Shown: positions 2,104 to 62,901 of the stretch, piece after piece
How the letters are laid out: each line of letters opens with the position of its first letter
How positions within the stretch are numbered: the first letter of the stretch is position 1
Source: Terriglobia bacterium
GTDB taxonomy: Bacteria; Acidobacteriota; Terriglobia; Terriglobales; Acidobacteriaceae
Assembly (NCBI GenBank): GCA_020073165.1
Contig: JAIQFP010000006.1
Coordinates: 1 to 64,000, forward strand
Direction of reading: 5' to 3'
DNA: 64,000 bases
Position numbers and translations under genes: made by a program
The notes under the pieces: model-generated
Seen by the model: the letters and a program-made list of their open reading frames with translations, nothing else
Database searches by the model: none
Told to the model about the DNA's origin: nothing

Positions 2104-5100
2104 TTGCCTTGTCTAAGTAAGTCGTCCGCGCTAGTTTTCGCGGTTGAGGCATTCCTGCTTCTTACTGCGCTCGTTTCCGCCTTCGCAGCCACTGGTAACG
2201 AGCGCGGGGAAACTCATTTCTTAGCAGATGTGGCAGCCCTGTATCAGCGTGCGTCGCAAGTAACTCCTCCGGCCGGCGCCGATGTGCTTTTCCTCGATGA
2301 CGAGGAGATTCTTGTCTTCGATACCGAAGGGCGGGCCGTCCGCTCACGGTATTTCCTTTACAAGGTGCTCACGCAGAGGGGGGCAGAAGACTGGGCTACC
2401 GTCTCTTCAGGTTGGGAGCCCTGGAGAGAGGAGCGCCCTAGCCTGCGCGCGCGGGTCATCACTCCAGACAGCGTGGTGCATCTTCTTGATGAAAAGACCA
2501 TCACCGACGCCCCCGCCAAAGAGAATCAAGACAACGTCTTCAGCGATCGCCGCGTGATGAGAGCGCCGCTGCCCGCCATCGCGCCGGGATCACTCGTGGA
2601 GGAGGAGTTGGTCTCCAAGGAAAGCGCATCCCTCTTAGGCGCGGGTTCGGTGGAGCGCTTTTATTTCGGGGGTTCTGTGCCTGTGCGGCACACTCGTTTA
2701 GTCCTGGATGTCCCCACCGCGTTCCCGCTTCGCTTCGATATCCACTTGCTACCTGATCTCAAGCCACAGCGAAACGAAGTTGCGGACCGCGTCCGCATCA
2801 CGTTCGACTACGGACCGATGGACCCGATCGAGGACCCTGAGGCCGAACTGCCCAGCGATGTACCTGCCTATCCCAGCATCACTTTTTCCACCGGAGACTC
2901 GTGGCAGCACGTGGCCGAGGAATATGGGAAGGTCGTGGACAAACAGATTGCTGGTGCGGACCTCAAGGCTCTCGTCGGCAGGCTGATCGCAGGCAAAGAT
3001 TCTCGTGACGAGAAAGCAGCCGCAATCCTCCAATTTCTGGGCCGGGAAATCCGCTATACCGGAGTCGAGTTTGGCGAGTCTGCCTTGGTCCCGCATCTCC
3101 CAAGCGAAACCCTGACCCGGAAATATGGTGACTGCAAAGACAAAGCCTCCTTGCTGGTGGCGATGCTGCGCACTGCGAAGATCCCCGCCCACATTGCTCT
3201 TCTCAACACGGGGAGCCGCGAAGACGTTGCTCTCGACCTGCCTGGCATGGGAATGTTCGATCACGCCATCGTCTATGTTCCCGGCAATCCTGACCTGTGG
3301 ATCGACGCCACCGACGAATTCGCCAGGCTTGGCGAGATTCCCATCGCCGATCAGGGACGTTTGGCTCTCATCGCGCGGCCCGACACCAGTACATTACTGC
3401 GCACTCTGGCCACTTCTTCCTCAGATAACGCGCTGATTGAGAAACGAGAGATTTATCTGGCCGAAAACGGTCCTGCCCGAATTGTTGAGACCTCCCAGCC
3501 TCACGGGAGCAGCGAGTCTTCCTACCGGCGTTCTTATGCTGACAAACAAAACAAAAATGCCAAGGACGAACTGACCAGCTACGTTAAGTCGCAATACTTG
3601 GCGGAGAAGCTCGATCGGATGGATCGCTCCGATCCCGCCGATCTCTCAAAACAGTTCGAACTGGTTCTTGAAAGCGATCGTGCCCGGCGCGGGGTTACTG
3701 ATCTCAACATCGCCGCGGTCGCCATCCGTTTCGATGGTTTAGTCAGCCGTCTTCCTTCCGACCTTCGGCAACGCGAAAAGGAGGACGATAGCAAGACTGA
3801 TAAGGAAAGCGGGCAAAAACCCAAGAAGGAACGCACCTCTGACTATCAGCTGCCCGAAGCGTTCGTAACCGAGTGGAACTATACGATCGTGCCCCCACCA
3901 GGTTTCAGGCCTAAACCTCTTCCGCAAAACGCGGAGCTCTTCCTCGGTCCTTCCATTCTCACCGAGGAGTTTGCGGTTGGTAAAGATGGCGCGGTTCACG
4001 CCACTATACGATTCGACAGCGTGAAACGGCGTATGACAGTTTCCGAAGCCACCGAGCTCCGCAACAAGGTTGCACAACTCATAGCGGGAGAACCCATCCT
4101 TATCTATTTTGAACCCATCGGACAGGCGCTAGTCAGCCAAGGCAAAGTTCGAGACGCGCTGCAGTCCTATCGTGAGTTGATCGCGCTGCACCCCAAGGAG
4201 GCGCTTCACCATCTGCAAATTGCGGGCACTTTCCTCGCTGCCGGGCTGGGCGAGGCAGCTCGCGCCCAGGCTCAGGCTGCAGTCAAACTGGAACCCAATT
4301 CGGCGCTGGCCGAGAAGACGCTCGCTGAGATTCTTGAATACGACTTGGTCGGGCGCAAGTTTCGCCCTGGCAGTGACTATTCAGGGGCGGAAGCCGCGTT
4401 TCGCGCCGCTGAAAACCTCGACCCTGACGACAAGGCTACGGTCGCAAATCTCGCCATTCTCCTCGAGCATAACCGCTGGGGGTTGCGTTATGGACCCGGC
4501 GCCAGGCTGAAGGATGCCGTGTCCGAGTACCGCAAGCTCTCGCCCGAGGAGCTGGCTGAACTGGGCGTGCAGAACAATCTCGCGTTCGCGCTGTTCTACG
4601 CCGGCGAATTCTCTGAGGCTCAGAAAAACGCTCAGACCCTGAACCCCCAGCCCATTGCCTTGATCGTCGCATGCGAGGCTGCCCTCCGCGGGTCCGAAGC
4701 CGCCCTCGCTGAAGCCAGGAAGCGCACTGGTGGGGAAGAACAACTCAAACAGATCGCGGAAGCTGCTGGGGGGATGCTGGTAAATCTTCGCAAGTATCCC
4801 CTTGCCGCTGATCTGGAGGATGCGGGGGCATCCGGGGCCAATGCATCCGAAACGGCAGCCAACGCTGCCTTGTATCGCAAAACTCAGCCTCACGAGCAGC
4901 TTGTCTTGGCTGATGATGCGGCTGGCGTCGCCCTGCGCTTCGAACTTCTGACAAACGATCCCAGCCTGACTCTCGAGCAGTTGCGCTCAATCAGCAGCCG
5001 CAACGGCAAGACAGTCTTGGCTACTTCGGAAGTGCTTGAGCCTATTGTCAAAGACGAAAGGCGTGATCTGAGCCAAAACGCAAAAGAGGGTTCTTTTGCC

Positions 5101-59121: not shown

Positions 59122-59739
59122 GTCACGTGTCTTCCTAGTTGCGCAAGATGCTGGACAGCCACACTGGTCTGCCAATTGCTATTGAAACATTGCCATTTCA
59201 CCGCCATCGCCAACCAGTTCAAGATGACAACACCACGCGCTGTCCAGAACAGACGCCTCATAGCTCATTGCCGACGCAGCACTATACCGGACTCAGGGCA
59301 CAGATGGAATGCTGCTGGTTCGCGTACGGTCCGCTCGGCGGTTGTGGAAGAAGCGCAGGGATTATTGGCGTAACATCCCCATTACACTCATGACCAATCG
59401 GTTCTGAGTGTAAGCGCTGATTACGACAACAATCAATTCCGACCCGGTAAGTTCCTCACAAAGAAGTGACCTCCGATTGGCCGTCACTCGGGCACAACCC
59501 CTGGATCTTTTACAAATCATCTACAAGCTGCTGACAAACGCGTGACAATCCTCGGGCCATTGCGCGGTACTTTAATTTTGCACCTGAGCCCACGCTCTGG
59601 GCCGCGGCTAGGCGAGATTCTTAGTGGAAAGCGGTGAGACTCCACAAGAGTCTGCACGGAGGTAGAAGCAGCCGATACTGAGCCACGTCAGATTTTCCAT
59701 CCTGGCAGCAGGTGATCCGTAACCTTCGAAGGAGAAGAC
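59122..59739. other. Intergenic stretch with repeat copy A and a structured leader candidate
   Basis: No convincing gene in these 618 bases. It holds palindromic repeat copy A (59369-59425) and, just ahead of the methyltransferase gene, a G+C-rich leader with a perfect hairpin AGACTC-CACAA-GAGTCT (59637-59653). The surrounding bases GGAAA...GGTGAGACTCC and GAGCCAC faintly resemble cobalamin-riboswitch core words, but the paired layout was not established. Confidence 0.5.
59369..59425. repeat. Cassette-type palindromic repeat, copy A
   Basis: Outer CGTAAC...TTACG enclose TTACACTCATGACC (59382-59395), loop AATC, and GGTTCTGAGTGTAA (59400-59413). Complete palindrome of 57 bases. Related to copies B-E downstream. 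Confidence 0.75.
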
Positions 59740-60522
59740 ATGTTGAGCCGAATTACAGCGTTCTTGTATGGTGTCGTCTGCTATCTGGTGTTTTTTATAA
59801 CTTTCTTGTATGCCATGGGTTTTCTCGGGAATTTTGGCGTTCCGAAGTCCATCGACTCCGGAGCGCAGTTGCCATTCCTCCAGGCATTGGCGATCAATGC
59901 CGCATTGCTGGGGCTATTCGCAGTTCAGCACAGCGTCATGGCGCGGCAATGGTTCAAACGCGCCTGGACGCGAATCGTGCCCGCGTCGGTCGAACGCAGC
60001 ACCTATGTGCTGTTCTCCAGTCTCGCTTTGCTCCTGCTGTTCTGGAAGTGGGAACCGATGGGTGGTGTGGTCTGGAATGTGGGGAACGACTTTGGACGGT
60101 TCGCGCTCTACAGTCTGTACGCTTTGGGCTGGGTGACGGTGCTCGCCGCCACCTTTCTCATCAACCATTTTGACCTGTTTGGACTGCGCCAGGTATGGCT
60201 GAATCTGCTGGGGCGCCCCTACACGGCCCTCGAGTTCCGCACTCCCGGCCTCTACCGTTTCGTCCGGCACCCCTTATATGTGGGATGGCTGCTCGTGTTC
60301 TGGTCGGCCCCGGTGATGACATCTGCGCATCTGGTCTTCGCAATCGCCACCACCGCGTACATTCTCGTAGCAATTCAGTTCGAGGAACGAGACCTCGTTC
60401 GAATTCATGGAGAATACGCCGAGTATCGCCGCCGGGTGCCAATGATTCTGCCCATTGGGTCCCCTCTGCAAAGAGAAAGCGCTGAAGTGCCCGGAAGCCC
60501 CGCGCCTGAAATGGAAACGTAG
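59740..60522 (+). CDS. Methanethiol S-methyltransferase-like (MddA/NnrU family) membrane enzyme
   Basis: 260 residues, about six membrane helices, ribosome site AAGGAG. C-terminal isoprenylcysteine-methyltransferase-like motif: [19 protein letters not shown], then [24 protein letters not shown], which bind S-adenosylmethionine. The N-terminal part ([27 protein letters not shown], then [45 protein letters not shown]) resembles MddA, which methylates methanethiol to dimethyl sulfide. That name is probable rather than proven, since the family is broad. It is the first gene of the repeat-bounded series. Confidence 0.78.
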
Positions 60523-60675
60523 GTTGTCTCGACAATTGAGTCACCTCGCATCGTACGAGTCAGAGCCAATTGGCTGCAAAACGCCATCGGTAAAGCTGGA
60601 CACCTTGGCTTTAGGTTCGAACATCATGCGACTACCCCGAATTGTCGGCAACTCGGAAGCCACGCGGTTGTTGTT

Positions 60676-60731
60676 GTAACATCGCCATTACACTCATAAC
60701 CAATCGGTTATAAGTGTAATCGCCTGTTTAC
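60676..60731. repeat. Cassette-type palindromic repeat, copy B
   Basis: GTAAC...GTTTAC enclose TTACACTCATAACC (60688-60701), loop AATC, and GGTTATAAGTGTAA (60706-60719). The 14-base arms pair at all but one position. It follows the methyltransferase gene by about 150 bases. Confidence 0.8.
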
Positions 60732-60872
60732 GCCAGTTGGGATCAATGTACAATGGGCAGCCGAGACGAGAGGCTCTATGTTTCCGCGCCTTCGCACTGT
60801 GCTCTGTCTGCCTTCTCCGATCCAGCAGGTTTCTCTTGCCGAGCAACCAGGGATGAGACTCCCTTTTCACCC

Positions 60873-61574
60873 GTGAAGGTAAAGGATCCCAACCAAAGAC
60901 TCGTGGCGCCTTTGTGGCACACGGCACTGCTCCTGCTGATTCTATTTATGCTCGCCGTGGGGGGAGCAAGGTTGCAGAGCCACGCGAACCCAAGTGATTC
61001 AATCGCACCACGACACGAAGGAATCGTGCCCTTGTATTTCTCGGTGATCATCCTAGAGTGGGCCTTGGTCTGTTTTGTCTGGTTCGGTCTGCGGCGGAGC
61101 GGAATGCGGTTACGTGAACTGATTGGGGGCCGATGGAACAGCGGCAAAGCTGTTCTGCTCGACGTTGCCATAGCTTTCGCTTTCTGGATTGTCTGGGAGG
61201 GCGCGGGGAAGTTGGTGCACCTCTTGCTCGGGCCCAGCCACGCCAAGACGATTGACGCGCTTCTGCCACAGGGTGCTCTCGAGGTTGGGCTTTGGATCGC
61301 GGTGTCTATGTCGGCGGGATTCGGCGAAGAGGTCGTCTATCGAGGGTATTTGCAGAAGCAGATTTTAGCGCTGAGCACTAGCGTCACGGCCGCAGTTCTC
61401 GGCCAAGCCATACTCTTCGGACTTTCACACGCCTATCAAGGAGCGAAGCAGGTAATTGTGATCACTGCCTTGGGAGTCGTTTATGGTGTCCTGCCGCTTT
61501 GGCGCAAAAGTCTGCGCCCCAACATCATGGCACATGCTTGGTCGGACGTATTCAGCGGCCTCCTTTCTCGATAA
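60873..61574 (+). CDS. CPBP-family intramembrane glutamic endopeptidase
   Basis: 233 residues from GTG 60873; an ATG at 60753 would add 40 residues that do not look like the family. Multi-pass membrane protein with all three catalytic motifs: EEVVYRGYLQ (EExxxR), FGLSHAYQG (FxxxH) and MAHAWSD (HxxxD/N type). The family (Abi/Rce1-like) cleaves within membranes; in bacteria, roles range from bacteriocin immunity to unknown. No bacteriocin gene is evident. Second gene of the repeat-bounded series. Confidence 0.82.
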   Translation: MKVKDPNQRLVAPLWHTALLLLILFMLAVGGARLQSHANPSDSIAPRHEGIVPLYFSVIILEWALVCFVWFGLRRSGMRLRELIGGRWNSGKAVLLDVAIAFAFWIVWEGAGKLVHLLLGPSHAKTIDALLPQGALEVGLWIAVSMSAGFGEEVVYRGYLQKQILALSTSVTAAVLGQAILFGLSHAYQGAKQVIVITALGVVYGVLPLWRKSLRPNIMAHAWSDVFSGLLSR

Positions 61575-61629
61575 AGGGCCGCAGGGCGATGCACTGGGGG
61601 GGGACCGACAGGCCCGACGCCTAAGACGG

Positions 61630-61655
61630 GGTTATGAGTGTAATCGCCTGGTTAC
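61630..61655. repeat. Cassette-type repeat, copy C (right half)
   Basis: GGTTATGAGTGTAATCGCC followed by TGGTTAC. Only the right arm of the palindrome is recognisable. It starts 55 bases after the CPBP stop and 39 bases before the next reading frame. Confidence 0.7.
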
Positions 61656-61693
61656 AACAATCAGGCGCCCACGAGGGCAGGTAGAATGCTGCG

Positions 61694-61978
61694 GTGACCG
61701 AACCCAAGCGCATTCACTATCGCGGCGTGCCGATGATTGAAGGCTGGCCCGAGAAGATTCAGGCGGCACAGCGGGTTGTCTCGTACACACTCAACGGGAA
61801 GGCTGTCCCTCGCGTTCGCTAAGGCGGCGAACAAGACGATTGGCATGCCGAGCGCGTTCCTTGTCACGACTGTCCAGTTCTAAAGGGCGAGTTCCATGTT
61901 CCAAGTTGTGACGTTGAGGAATGCCCAGTCTGCGGGGGGCAACTAATCTCCTGTGATTGCGCCCTTCGAGGAACGTGA
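61694..61978 (+). pseudogene. Cys-rich conserved hypothetical, broken by an in-frame TAA
   Basis: From GTG 61694 one frame reads TEPKRIHYRGVPMIEGWPEK... to VPRVR, then TAA (61820-61822), and continues in the same frame as GGEQDDWHAERVPCHDCPVLKGEFH...ECPVCGGQLISCDCALRGT to TGA at 61976-61978. A Tyr codon at the stop would restore a 94-residue protein with a zinc-binding-type Cys pattern (CHDC, CDVEECPVC, CDC). Codon structure is good on both sides, so this is a recent nonsense change, or less likely a sequencing error or a readthrough case. Function unknown. Third member of the repeat-bounded series. Confidence 0.7.
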
Positions 61979-61985
61979 GCACGTA

Positions 61986-62010
61986 TTCTGAGTGTAATCG
62001 CCTGTTTTCG
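61986..62010. repeat. Cassette-type repeat, copy D (right half)
   Basis: TTCTGAGTGTAATCGCC followed by TGTTTTCG. Right arm only; starts seven bases after the pseudogene stop. Confidence 0.7.
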
Positions 62011-62102
62011 TCAATTACCTCCCTTAATACCATTCGTGTTAGATTTCCGCCCGTATGCTCACACGGTTTGGAGGCTTCATGCTTTTAACCGGAGCGAACA
62101 AA

Positions 62103-62660
62103 ATGAAGATAATGCAAGTACTTCTTGTGATCGCTATTCTCAGTGCGCTCGCGAATGCACAGCAACAGCTCCCGTCCGCTCCCGCTCCGTCGTCCACAAC
62201 CGAGACTGCGCTGGTTCCAGTGCAGATGCGCGCCATCGTGGACACCTTAGCAGGCACATGGTCAATCACATGGACCGACAAGGATGGACACGTAATCGGA
62301 AAGGGCAAAGAAGTGTGGAAGATCGCGCCCGGCGGTATCCCCTTTATCGAGGAAAACCGCTCGACCGTGAATGGGAAGCCGGCTGAAGACTATGCCGCAA
62401 TGTGGTGGGACAATAAAGCGCAAACGATCCACGGGATCTGGTGCGACGCTACCATCAACGACGAGGGTTGCAGTGGATTCAACGTAACTCTCGACGGCAA
62501 GGACGTGGTCCTGACTGGCGAGTGGGAATACCTAGGCAAGCGGCAGAGCTGGCGAGAAGTTTTTAGCGCCACAAGGACGGCCATGACCCAAACGCTCTCC
62601 ACTGGCGAGCCCGGAAAAGAATTGAAGCCTGCCCCAACGATCCGCGGTACGAAGCGATGA
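62103..62660 (+). CDS. Secreted DUF1579-like protein
   Basis: 185 residues from ATG 62103, eight bases after GGAG. Signal peptide MKIMQVLLVIAILSALANAQ. The mature part is a small beta-barrel-like domain: IVDTLAGTWSITWTDKDGHVIGKGKEVWKIAPGGIPFIEENRSTVNG, AAMWWDNKAQTIHGIWCDATINDEGCSGF and GEWEYLGKRQSWREVFS. It resembles the lipocalin-like DUF1579 group, whose members have no confirmed function. Two Cys probably pair. Fourth member of the repeat-bounded series. Confidence 0.7.
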   Translation: MKIMQVLLVIAILSALANAQQQLPSAPAPSSTTETALVPVQMRAIVDTLAGTWSITWTDKDGHVIGKGKEVWKIAPGGIPFIEENRSTVNGKPAEDYAAMWWDNKAQTIHGIWCDATINDEGCSGFNVTLDGKDVVLTGEWEYLGKRQSWREVFSATRTAMTQTLSTGEPGKELKPAPTIRGTKR

Positions 62661-62696
62661 CGCGAGGGTTTGCTTAAGCAGCAGTTGGCGAAAAAT

Positions 62697-62742
62697 CGCG
62701 ATTACACCAACAACCGAGTTGTGAGTGTAAACGCCTGTCAAC
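62697..62742. repeat. Cassette-type palindromic repeat, copy E
   Basis: CGCGATTACACCAACAACC (62697-62715), two to three loop bases, GTTGTGAGTGTAAACGCC (62718-62735). Complete palindrome whose inner arm (ACAAC/GTTGT) differs from copy B (ATAACC/GGTTAT) but still pairs. Confidence 0.7.
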
Positions 62743-62901
62743 AACGGTTAGCTTCGACCAAACTCGGAGGCGGGAGGAGACTCTTGCGCTGGTTTGGCAC
62801 CAATTTGGAAACCAGCTGTTGTAGCGGGCCGGTTTCTTGTCGATTCCTTAACGCCGATGACCTAGAATGGGCGTGTGAGGTGGGGGAAGGAGTTCTTCCC
62901 C

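Follow-up and report, generated by a model that had tools for sequence, protein, structure and literature searches.

Candidate gene cassettes with hybrid CGCC-core sites in Acidobacteriota and a linked clade of tyrosine recombinases

Gene cassettes that are gained, lost and swapped singly are known from integrons with an IntI integrase and from the dif modules of Acinetobacter plasmids. In integrons, the recombination site attC carries a core of the type GTTRRRY and an inverse core RYYYAAC. A further arrangement is the mobile insertion cassette or passenger element, where a passenger gene lies between terminal inverted repeats and no transposase is found inside. Here, we describe an array of small genes and repeated sites from the Acidobacteriota, which are common soil bacteria. 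The array lies in the window, i.e., the whole stretch of 64,000 nucleotides that was analysed, which comprises positions 1 to 64,000 of contig JAIQFP010000006.1 (C20 in our numbering) in a genome of 4.6 Mb and 35 contigs (G000). An earlier note on the window, made from its letters alone, had described five copies of one palindromic repeat separated by single plus-strand genes and had proposed a cassette-like array. Judged from sequence comparison, the array most likely represents site-specific gene cassettes with hybrid core sites that would be exchanged within a CGCC core, and a distinct clade of tyrosine recombinases is the likely enzyme. We assign this reading a probability of about 0.7.

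Anatomy and distribution of the half-sites

A full copy of the repeat is composed of two different half-sites, a left one (LH, approximately GTTGGCGTAACATCGCCATTACACTCATTGACC) and a right one (RH, approximately GGTTNTGAGTGTAATCGCCTGNTTACGACAGTTA), which are mutual inverted repeats except for an eight-base centre. RH reads X'-(A/T)CGCC-Y and stands at the cassette start; LH reads Y'-ATCGCC-X and stands at the cassette end. The X arms are TGAGTGTAA / TTACACTCA and the Y arms TTACGACAG / CTGTCGTAA, with an arm consensus GTAA-8-TTAC, and the CGCC core has direct orientation in both half-sites. In RH this core is near-constant, with C, G, C and C in 188, 210, 211 and 211 of 217 sites, respectively. 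The collection of 217 RH and 253 LH was counted at a threshold of 20 bits with the duplicate loci L066, L121, L105 and L106 excluded, and needlessly also L107; its members are not independent, because some loci may be one genome under two names. LH is frequently followed directly by RH, the two being -2 to 45 nt apart in an initial set of 49 sites, and 93 LH.RH pairs have a spacer below 80 nt (median 9 nt). Single LH or RH are common as well, some of them with a decayed partner.

A position-weight model (PWM) trained exclusively on other genomes (206 RH, 233 LH) recovers seven half-sites of at least 36 bits in the window, all on the plus strand between 59,364 and 62,750, namely LH A, LH B, RH B, RH C, RH D, LH E and RH E. 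The remaining match in the window is a single one of 11.4 bits, and sixty first-order Markov windows yielded a mean of 0.07 matches of at least 10 bits, the top one reaching 11.2 bits. The five copies thus lie where the earlier note had put them. Its full palindromes A, B and E are indeed paired copies, each of which consists of LH plus RH rather than of one palindromic unit. For copies C and D, RH is present and no LH of at least 10 bits was found with the PWM. RH A is recognisable by sequence and is not among the PWM matches in the window, which we attribute to a deletion in its core.

The same sites are widespread. In G000, the RH word has 29 matches with at most two mismatches, versus one for the reversed control word. 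Matches to the RH sequence model were found in 55 of 120 family genomes (E 0.05), likewise 55 for the LH model, and 37 of the 120 carry three or more RH; the relative G085 has at least 58 RH and at least 58 LH. Within the fetched regions the sites form arrays of RH-gene-LH units. The 133 units with 100-6000 nt between the sites have a median length of 957 nt, and they hold one open reading frame (ORF) of at least 100 aa in 88 cases, none in 19 and two to five in 26. The spread is therefore genome-wide, but as arrays or units around genes and not as the scatter without a link to genes that had been named as contrary evidence. The uniform plus-strand orientation noticed earlier holds for the three genes of the window and is not general: of 114 units, 64 have their longest ORF in the RH-to-LH direction.

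It had also been suggested that structure rather than sequence is kept in these repeats, since the inner arms of copies B and E differ and still pair. The two do pair. Over 94 LH.RH sites, the inner arms match at 2.87 of 6 positions, compared with 3.12 for shuffled partners. We rejected conserved structure on 49 sites and then again on 94; neither inner-arm pairing nor pairing of the cassette's own ends exceeds shuffled partners.

Joints and variable cassette content

The boundaries of the exchanged DNA are best seen by comparing G000 with G001, a sister species of the same genus. At one locus, (f), flanks of 88% identity enclose different inserts: G001 has one unit, which encodes a beta-lactamase-fold protein, and G000 has two others, whose middle sites are weak (29 and 25 bits). 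The left homology reaches ..GAGTGCTAACGCCTG, with a few matches to the Y-arm consensus, and at the break point the left flank reads ..TTGAGTGCTAACGCCTG plus these few bases. The right homology restarts inside LH, at ATCGCCATTACACC.., with ATCGCCATTACACCAACAGCCC as the restart point. From these breaks it follows that the X arms belong to the resident flank and the Y arms to the cassette, and that the joints lie in or beside CGCC. The earlier note had expected joining at TTAC/GTTTAC; this was not borne out as such, the joint being the CGCC core inside each half-site.

Two further comparisons place boundaries at the core. Two copies of one cassette in G085 are 99% identical and have different upstream DNA; their identity starts at AACGCCTG. 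Likewise, the recombinase modules described below are often alike across genomes up to CGCCTG and divergent beyond it. In pairwise alignments of these modules, counted in both directions with L201 and L227 excluded (identical to L105 and L106), homology on the first side ends between -3 and +4 of G in CGCCTG in 32 of 63 cases; in 24 others it extends to +8 to +19, for the most part within the conserved Y arm, and in 7 it stops earlier. For the second side (74 alignments), the end lies at 0 to +5 in 31, at +9 to +15 in nine and earlier in 34; many of these last ends are at -20 to -37, a region in which the modules differ in their 3' part.

Cassette content is strain-variable. The comparison of G000 with G001 covers seven loci, with G000 units such as those on C3 and C18 standing outside it, and the content differs at six of them. 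(a) For the window array, the two flanks share a contig in G001 and stand 2.5 kb apart, with no site in between; neither the array nor a kinase gene present in G000 occurs at this place, and a different contig carries the kinase gene. (b, c) The G000 units on C34 and C27 are absent from G001. (d) At the C29 locus, G001 has other DNA without sites. (e) Conversely, a unit on G001 contig C110 occurs in G001 alone, and G000 has other DNA without sites. (f) Different cassettes lie between the same flanks on G001 C55 and G000 C13, as described above. (g) The C31/C59 locus is common to both genomes. The flanks of four G000 loci were sought in G001 and three were matched; the fourth, on C19 (L065), was unmatched and is not one of the seven. 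In addition, the D-E cassette of the window, which carries gene 3, recurs in a differently composed array of G085 with 88% identity from RH to LH. Both expectations of the earlier note on this point can thus be answered: genes do vary between the sister genomes at the same site, and the invariant gene order that would have spoken against cassettes is not the rule, with six of seven loci differing. When every fetched locus was searched for empty sites, most of the matches were LH sites, and G000 C19:9488 was the one good candidate.

A tract of 4.9 kb on G000 C31 (approximately 216,900-221,800) and G001 C59, which holds cassette sites and further genes, is about 99.8% identical between the two genomes, and the DNA beside it is 86-91% identical. 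It probably represents a recent homologous exchange. An end of this tract at RH was considered and rejected; because its start actually lies 80-90 bp upstream of RH, the tract was dropped as evidence on the joints.

Boundaries of this kind might also be left by a transposon. In that case the Y arms would be terminal inverted repeats and CGCC a 4-bp target duplication within a palindromic hotspot X'-CGCC-X, with a transposase acting in trans on passenger cassettes. LH and RH are indeed mutual inverted repeats outside the core, both cassette ends have CGCC, and copies of insertion sequences (IS) and of a miniature inverted-repeat transposable element (MITE) also target the RH spot. The units moreover resemble mobile insertion cassettes in having a passenger gene between inverted repeats and no transposase inside. 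They differ in a core that is nearly fixed at both ends, where a target duplication would be variable except with an invariant target, and in a tyrosine recombinase that is bounded by the same ends. No transposase-bearing version with RH/LH ends turned up, although no systematic search for one was made. We regard such a transposon as improbable.

A clade of tyrosine recombinases linked to RH

G000 has ten matches to the tyrosine-recombinase family PF00589. One of them, on contig C18, has an outward-facing RH site on each side, which bears out the expectation that a tyrosine recombinase would be linked to the sites; it is found beside the same sites elsewhere in the genome. The C18 gene is frameshifted, and intact relatives exist. 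A scan of public genomes with such a relative gave 80 loci, from Acidobacteriota groups by title and from one metagenome-assembled genome labelled "Proteobacteria". In a tree of 83 recombinases, an outward RH lies within 1.8 kb of 18 of the 24 members of one clade (support 0.85) and of none of the 59 recombinases outside it; none of 1000 random sets of 18 is as compact on the tree as the RH-linked ones. Some contigs in this tree are too short to reveal a site, and the recombinase of L118, which is truncated, was below the length limit. At 9 of the 22 close loci (recombinase identity of at least 79%), the recombinase start is preceded by an RH at a distance of 80-278 bp; at 11, an outward RH follows downstream within 3.5 kb, and 16 loci have at least one of the two. 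No outward RH was in range at 22 loci with recombinases of 59-71% identity, and the one relative on viral contigs (62% identity) is one of those that lack a site.

Apart from four exceptions in all, every ungapped position in the catalytic R-K-H-R-H-Y columns is conserved (n = 83): R and K are present in 83 of 83, H in 77 (6 gapped), R in 76 (6 gapped, 1 other), H in 75 (8 gapped) and Y in 70 (10 gapped, 3 other). The best matches in the PDB are XerC-like and XerD chains (E 2e-15 and 7e-15); IntI4 follows at E 6e-5.

The modules contain further genes. The product is an FRP-like protein (PF18032, E 5e-21) at L212:5814-6191 and a PRiA4_ORF3 protein at L105:1724-2281, both identified by scanning; a similar ORF at L059:10465-11001 was recognised by eye. 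These may be helper genes. In G089, three or four tyrosine-recombinase-like ORFs (by eye) follow a truncated cassette recombinase at L106:2369-5584 and are perhaps a RIT element, i.e., recombinases in trio (cf. PMC3414803). Two arrays of G085 (L138:8340 and, on the minus strand, L139:10684) have a common leader before the first RH, unlike the leader beside the recombinase and with a C-terminal recombinase fragment near one of them; it is possibly another attI-like region.

Debris of a canonical integron, now a cluster of attC sites lacking an integrase (CALIN), is one alternative. Acidobacteria are named among integron carriers in PMC8352920 and PMC8618304. Two simple sites in dyad around a variable loop recall the anatomy of the 59-base element, the arrays consist mostly of single-gene cassettes, arrays without a nearby recombinase are common in both cases, and the recombinase adjoins a primary site, reading away from the cassettes at the 9 close loci with an upstream RH. 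Moreover, 28 of the 120 family genomes gave IntI matches of up to 120 bits, which is below the cut-off of 265 bits. None of the 120 passed the IntI model TIGR02249; none of 14 control genomes passed either, hence this search has no positive control. The clade recombinase itself scores 19 bits against that cut-off. GTTRRRY occurs in 0 of 217 RH and RYYYAAC in 2 of 253 LH, and the base following CGCCTG is G in 29 of 217 RH. This agrees with the earlier judgement that the array is at most attC-like. Unlike in integrons, exchange would take place at the CGCC of both half-sites, genes stand in either, near random orientation, and the recombinase module can carry a site at each end; an outward site 3' of the integrase gene is not known from integrons. 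Membership in the IntI integrons is refuted here, and an origin as integron debris is very unlikely. The gene shuffling would be integron-like in outcome and be carried out by other parts.

A different enzyme would be implied if the sites were inverted dif-like sites whose modules are moved by the host XerC/XerD, with the linked recombinase as a passenger. The module logic is the same: in Acinetobacter, dif modules alternate and single modules are replaced between relatives (PMC13141974), insertion elements that hunt dif sites are known (PMC10132070), and the sites are inverted, with two kinds of arms around a short core, as RH and LH are. G000 also has two adjacent PF00589 genes, the first of which, the sole one scanned, passes the XerD model. 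Arms and spacing differ, with GTAA-8-TTAC in our sites versus ..ATAA-6-TTAT.. in the Acinetobacter pdif table of PMC13141974. Further differences are that one of the two kinds of RH/LH module is often a mere loop of 0-45 nt, and that the RH/LH arrays stand among chromosomal genes of Acidobacteriota, the dif modules on plasmids of Acinetobacter. Dif modules use XerCD, whereas one recombinase clade tracks our sites (18 of 24 versus 0 of 59) and its module often ends at them. We regard a dif system of the host as unlikely.

The sites and their wide distribution, the boundaries at the cores, the variable content and the link to the recombinase clade are observed; from these we infer the following mechanism for the preferred reading of site-specific cassettes with a dedicated recombinase. 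Strand exchange would occur in the CGCC core shared by RH and LH, with X arms remaining with the flank and Y arms moving with the cassette. Since both half-sites have the same ATCGCC core in the same direction, exchange between them would excise a circle Y'-core-Y and leave X'-core-X; by this arrangement RH and LH would behave like attL and attR. The empty site would then be X'-CGCC-X, the free circle Y'-CGCC-Y, and integration the reverse of excision. Exchange of RH with RH, or LH with LH, of adjacent cassettes could alternatively move a unit including the loop, as in integrons; both routes fit the data. The DNA might act as a double strand or, like the folded attC, as a single strand, although local arm pairing is no better than with shuffled partners. 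The enzyme would be a tyrosine recombinase of the distinct clade, by sequence nearer to XerC/XerD than to IntI. Its module, with X' at both ends, may serve as a platform: because RH points outward on both module sides where the contig allows, cassettes could stand on either side. The window array would depend on a recombinase in trans, and given the frameshifted C18 copy it may be a relic or be served from elsewhere.

Several observations weigh against this interpretation. No excision or integration event was observed, and both boundaries are shown together at one locus only. The places in G001 that lack the C34 and C27 units have no X'-CGCC-X, and CGCC at both cassette ends is compatible with a 4-bp target duplication as well as with a recombination core. 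The C18 recombinase, as mentioned, is frameshifted in G000. G085 and G045, both rich in sites, lack any relative of the recombinase at E<=1e-30; seven site-rich genomes have 115 PF00589 matches, and none of the 30 that were fetched exceeds 38% identity to it. Many sites are single or decayed, above all at array ends, and about six of the 55 positive genomes may be single chance matches at E 0.05. Finally, complementarity between a cassette start and its own end, which had looked convincing in the A-B and D-E cassettes and in G012, had already failed on 59 units and was rejected; over 134 units it amounts to 6.16 of 10, compared with 6.35 for shuffled partners.

Whether RH/LH cassettes form a third, independent bacterial cassette system beside IntI integrons and Xer dif modules is a more demanding question, for which we see roughly even chances. 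Such a system would comprise a dedicated recombinase, an outward site at each module end, chromosomal cassettes with attL/attR-like sites sharing CGCC, and possibly an FRP-like helper. No such system appears in the titles and abstract beginnings among the literature matches listed, a coverage outside which most subscription journals fall. A separate system would suggest that cassette shuffling arose more than once, and a new pair of enzyme and site would make the minimal needs of a cassette system testable. It would also explain part of the large variable gene pool of soil genomes; search tools built for IntI and attC would probably overlook it.

Genes of the window array and elements inserted at RH

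The features of the array are listed in Table 1. One gene per interval, as described previously, is found in three of the four intervals, the exception being the C-D interval, whose longest ORF (68 aa) is on the minus strand. This interval is probably a decayed cassette. Cassette gene 1 has an 81% identical stretch in G085. No Rfam family matched in the array region or at three other loci.

Table 1. Half-sites, genes and the C-D interval of the window array.
Feature	Position	Strand	Evidence
LH half-site, copy A (Y'-core-X)	59364..59397	+	PWM 41.7 bits; sequence
RH half-site, copy A, core short of one base (GCGCTG for CGCCTG)	59399..59431	+	sequence
Cassette gene 1, small membrane methyltransferase-like protein (PEMT/ICMT)	59740..60522	+	Pfam PF04191, E 3e-6
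LH half-site, copy B, core CGCC 60683-60686	60670..60703	+	PWM 46.9 bits
RH half-site, copy B, core CGCC 60721-60724	60706..60739	+	PWM 44.1 bits
Cassette gene 2, CPBP (Rce1-like) protease	60753..61574	+	Pfam PF02517, E 5e-18
RH half-site, copy C, without recognisable LH	61630..61663	+	PWM 49.8 bits
C-D interval	61664..61983	+	ORF scan: no plus-strand ORF of at least 40 aa inside
RH half-site, copy D, without recognisable LH	61984..62017	+	PWM 46.1 bits
Cassette gene 3, signal-like N terminus by eye, no Pfam match	62055..62660	+	ORF
LH half-site, copy E	62684..62717	+	PWM 41.4 bits
RH half-site, copy E	62717..62750	+	PWM 36.4 bits

Cassettes elsewhere carry varied genes. Eight cassette proteins searched against Pfam comprise a cation P-type ATPase, a Ser/Thr kinase with TPR repeats, an epimerase, a cupin protein, a beta-lactamase-fold protein, an aldo/keto reductase, an IS1595 transposase and one protein without a match. 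A second CPBP-like protease gene (by eye) follows directly after LH at L069:2131-3066 (G000 C27) and L319:3603-4539 (G001 C91); the two copies are 97% identical and apparently at different loci.

RH is itself a repeated target of insertion. IS elements, of which a transposase piece matches PF05598 (DUF772), and a related MITE of 150 bp with ends GTGGSTGTTGAAAAASTC are inserted at the same RH spot at L053, L025, L045, L057, L042 and L046, as well as at the contig ends L002, L003, L012, L015 and L021. In five of the six cases shown, RH continues past the MITE after a repeated (C)GCCTG or GTCTG. An insert of the IS/MITE type is present in 21 of 358 RH-like contexts, and several G000 contigs end at such an insertion spot. 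A different common sequence follows the CGCCT core at L144:7280-7443 and at L065 (minus strand, RH at 4522). It has no Rfam match and contains TCCATGAGAAGGCCGGTCGGAGTCAAGTGGG (letters from L144 and L065); L210:10570-10761 and L347:7389-7590 align with it at about 90%.

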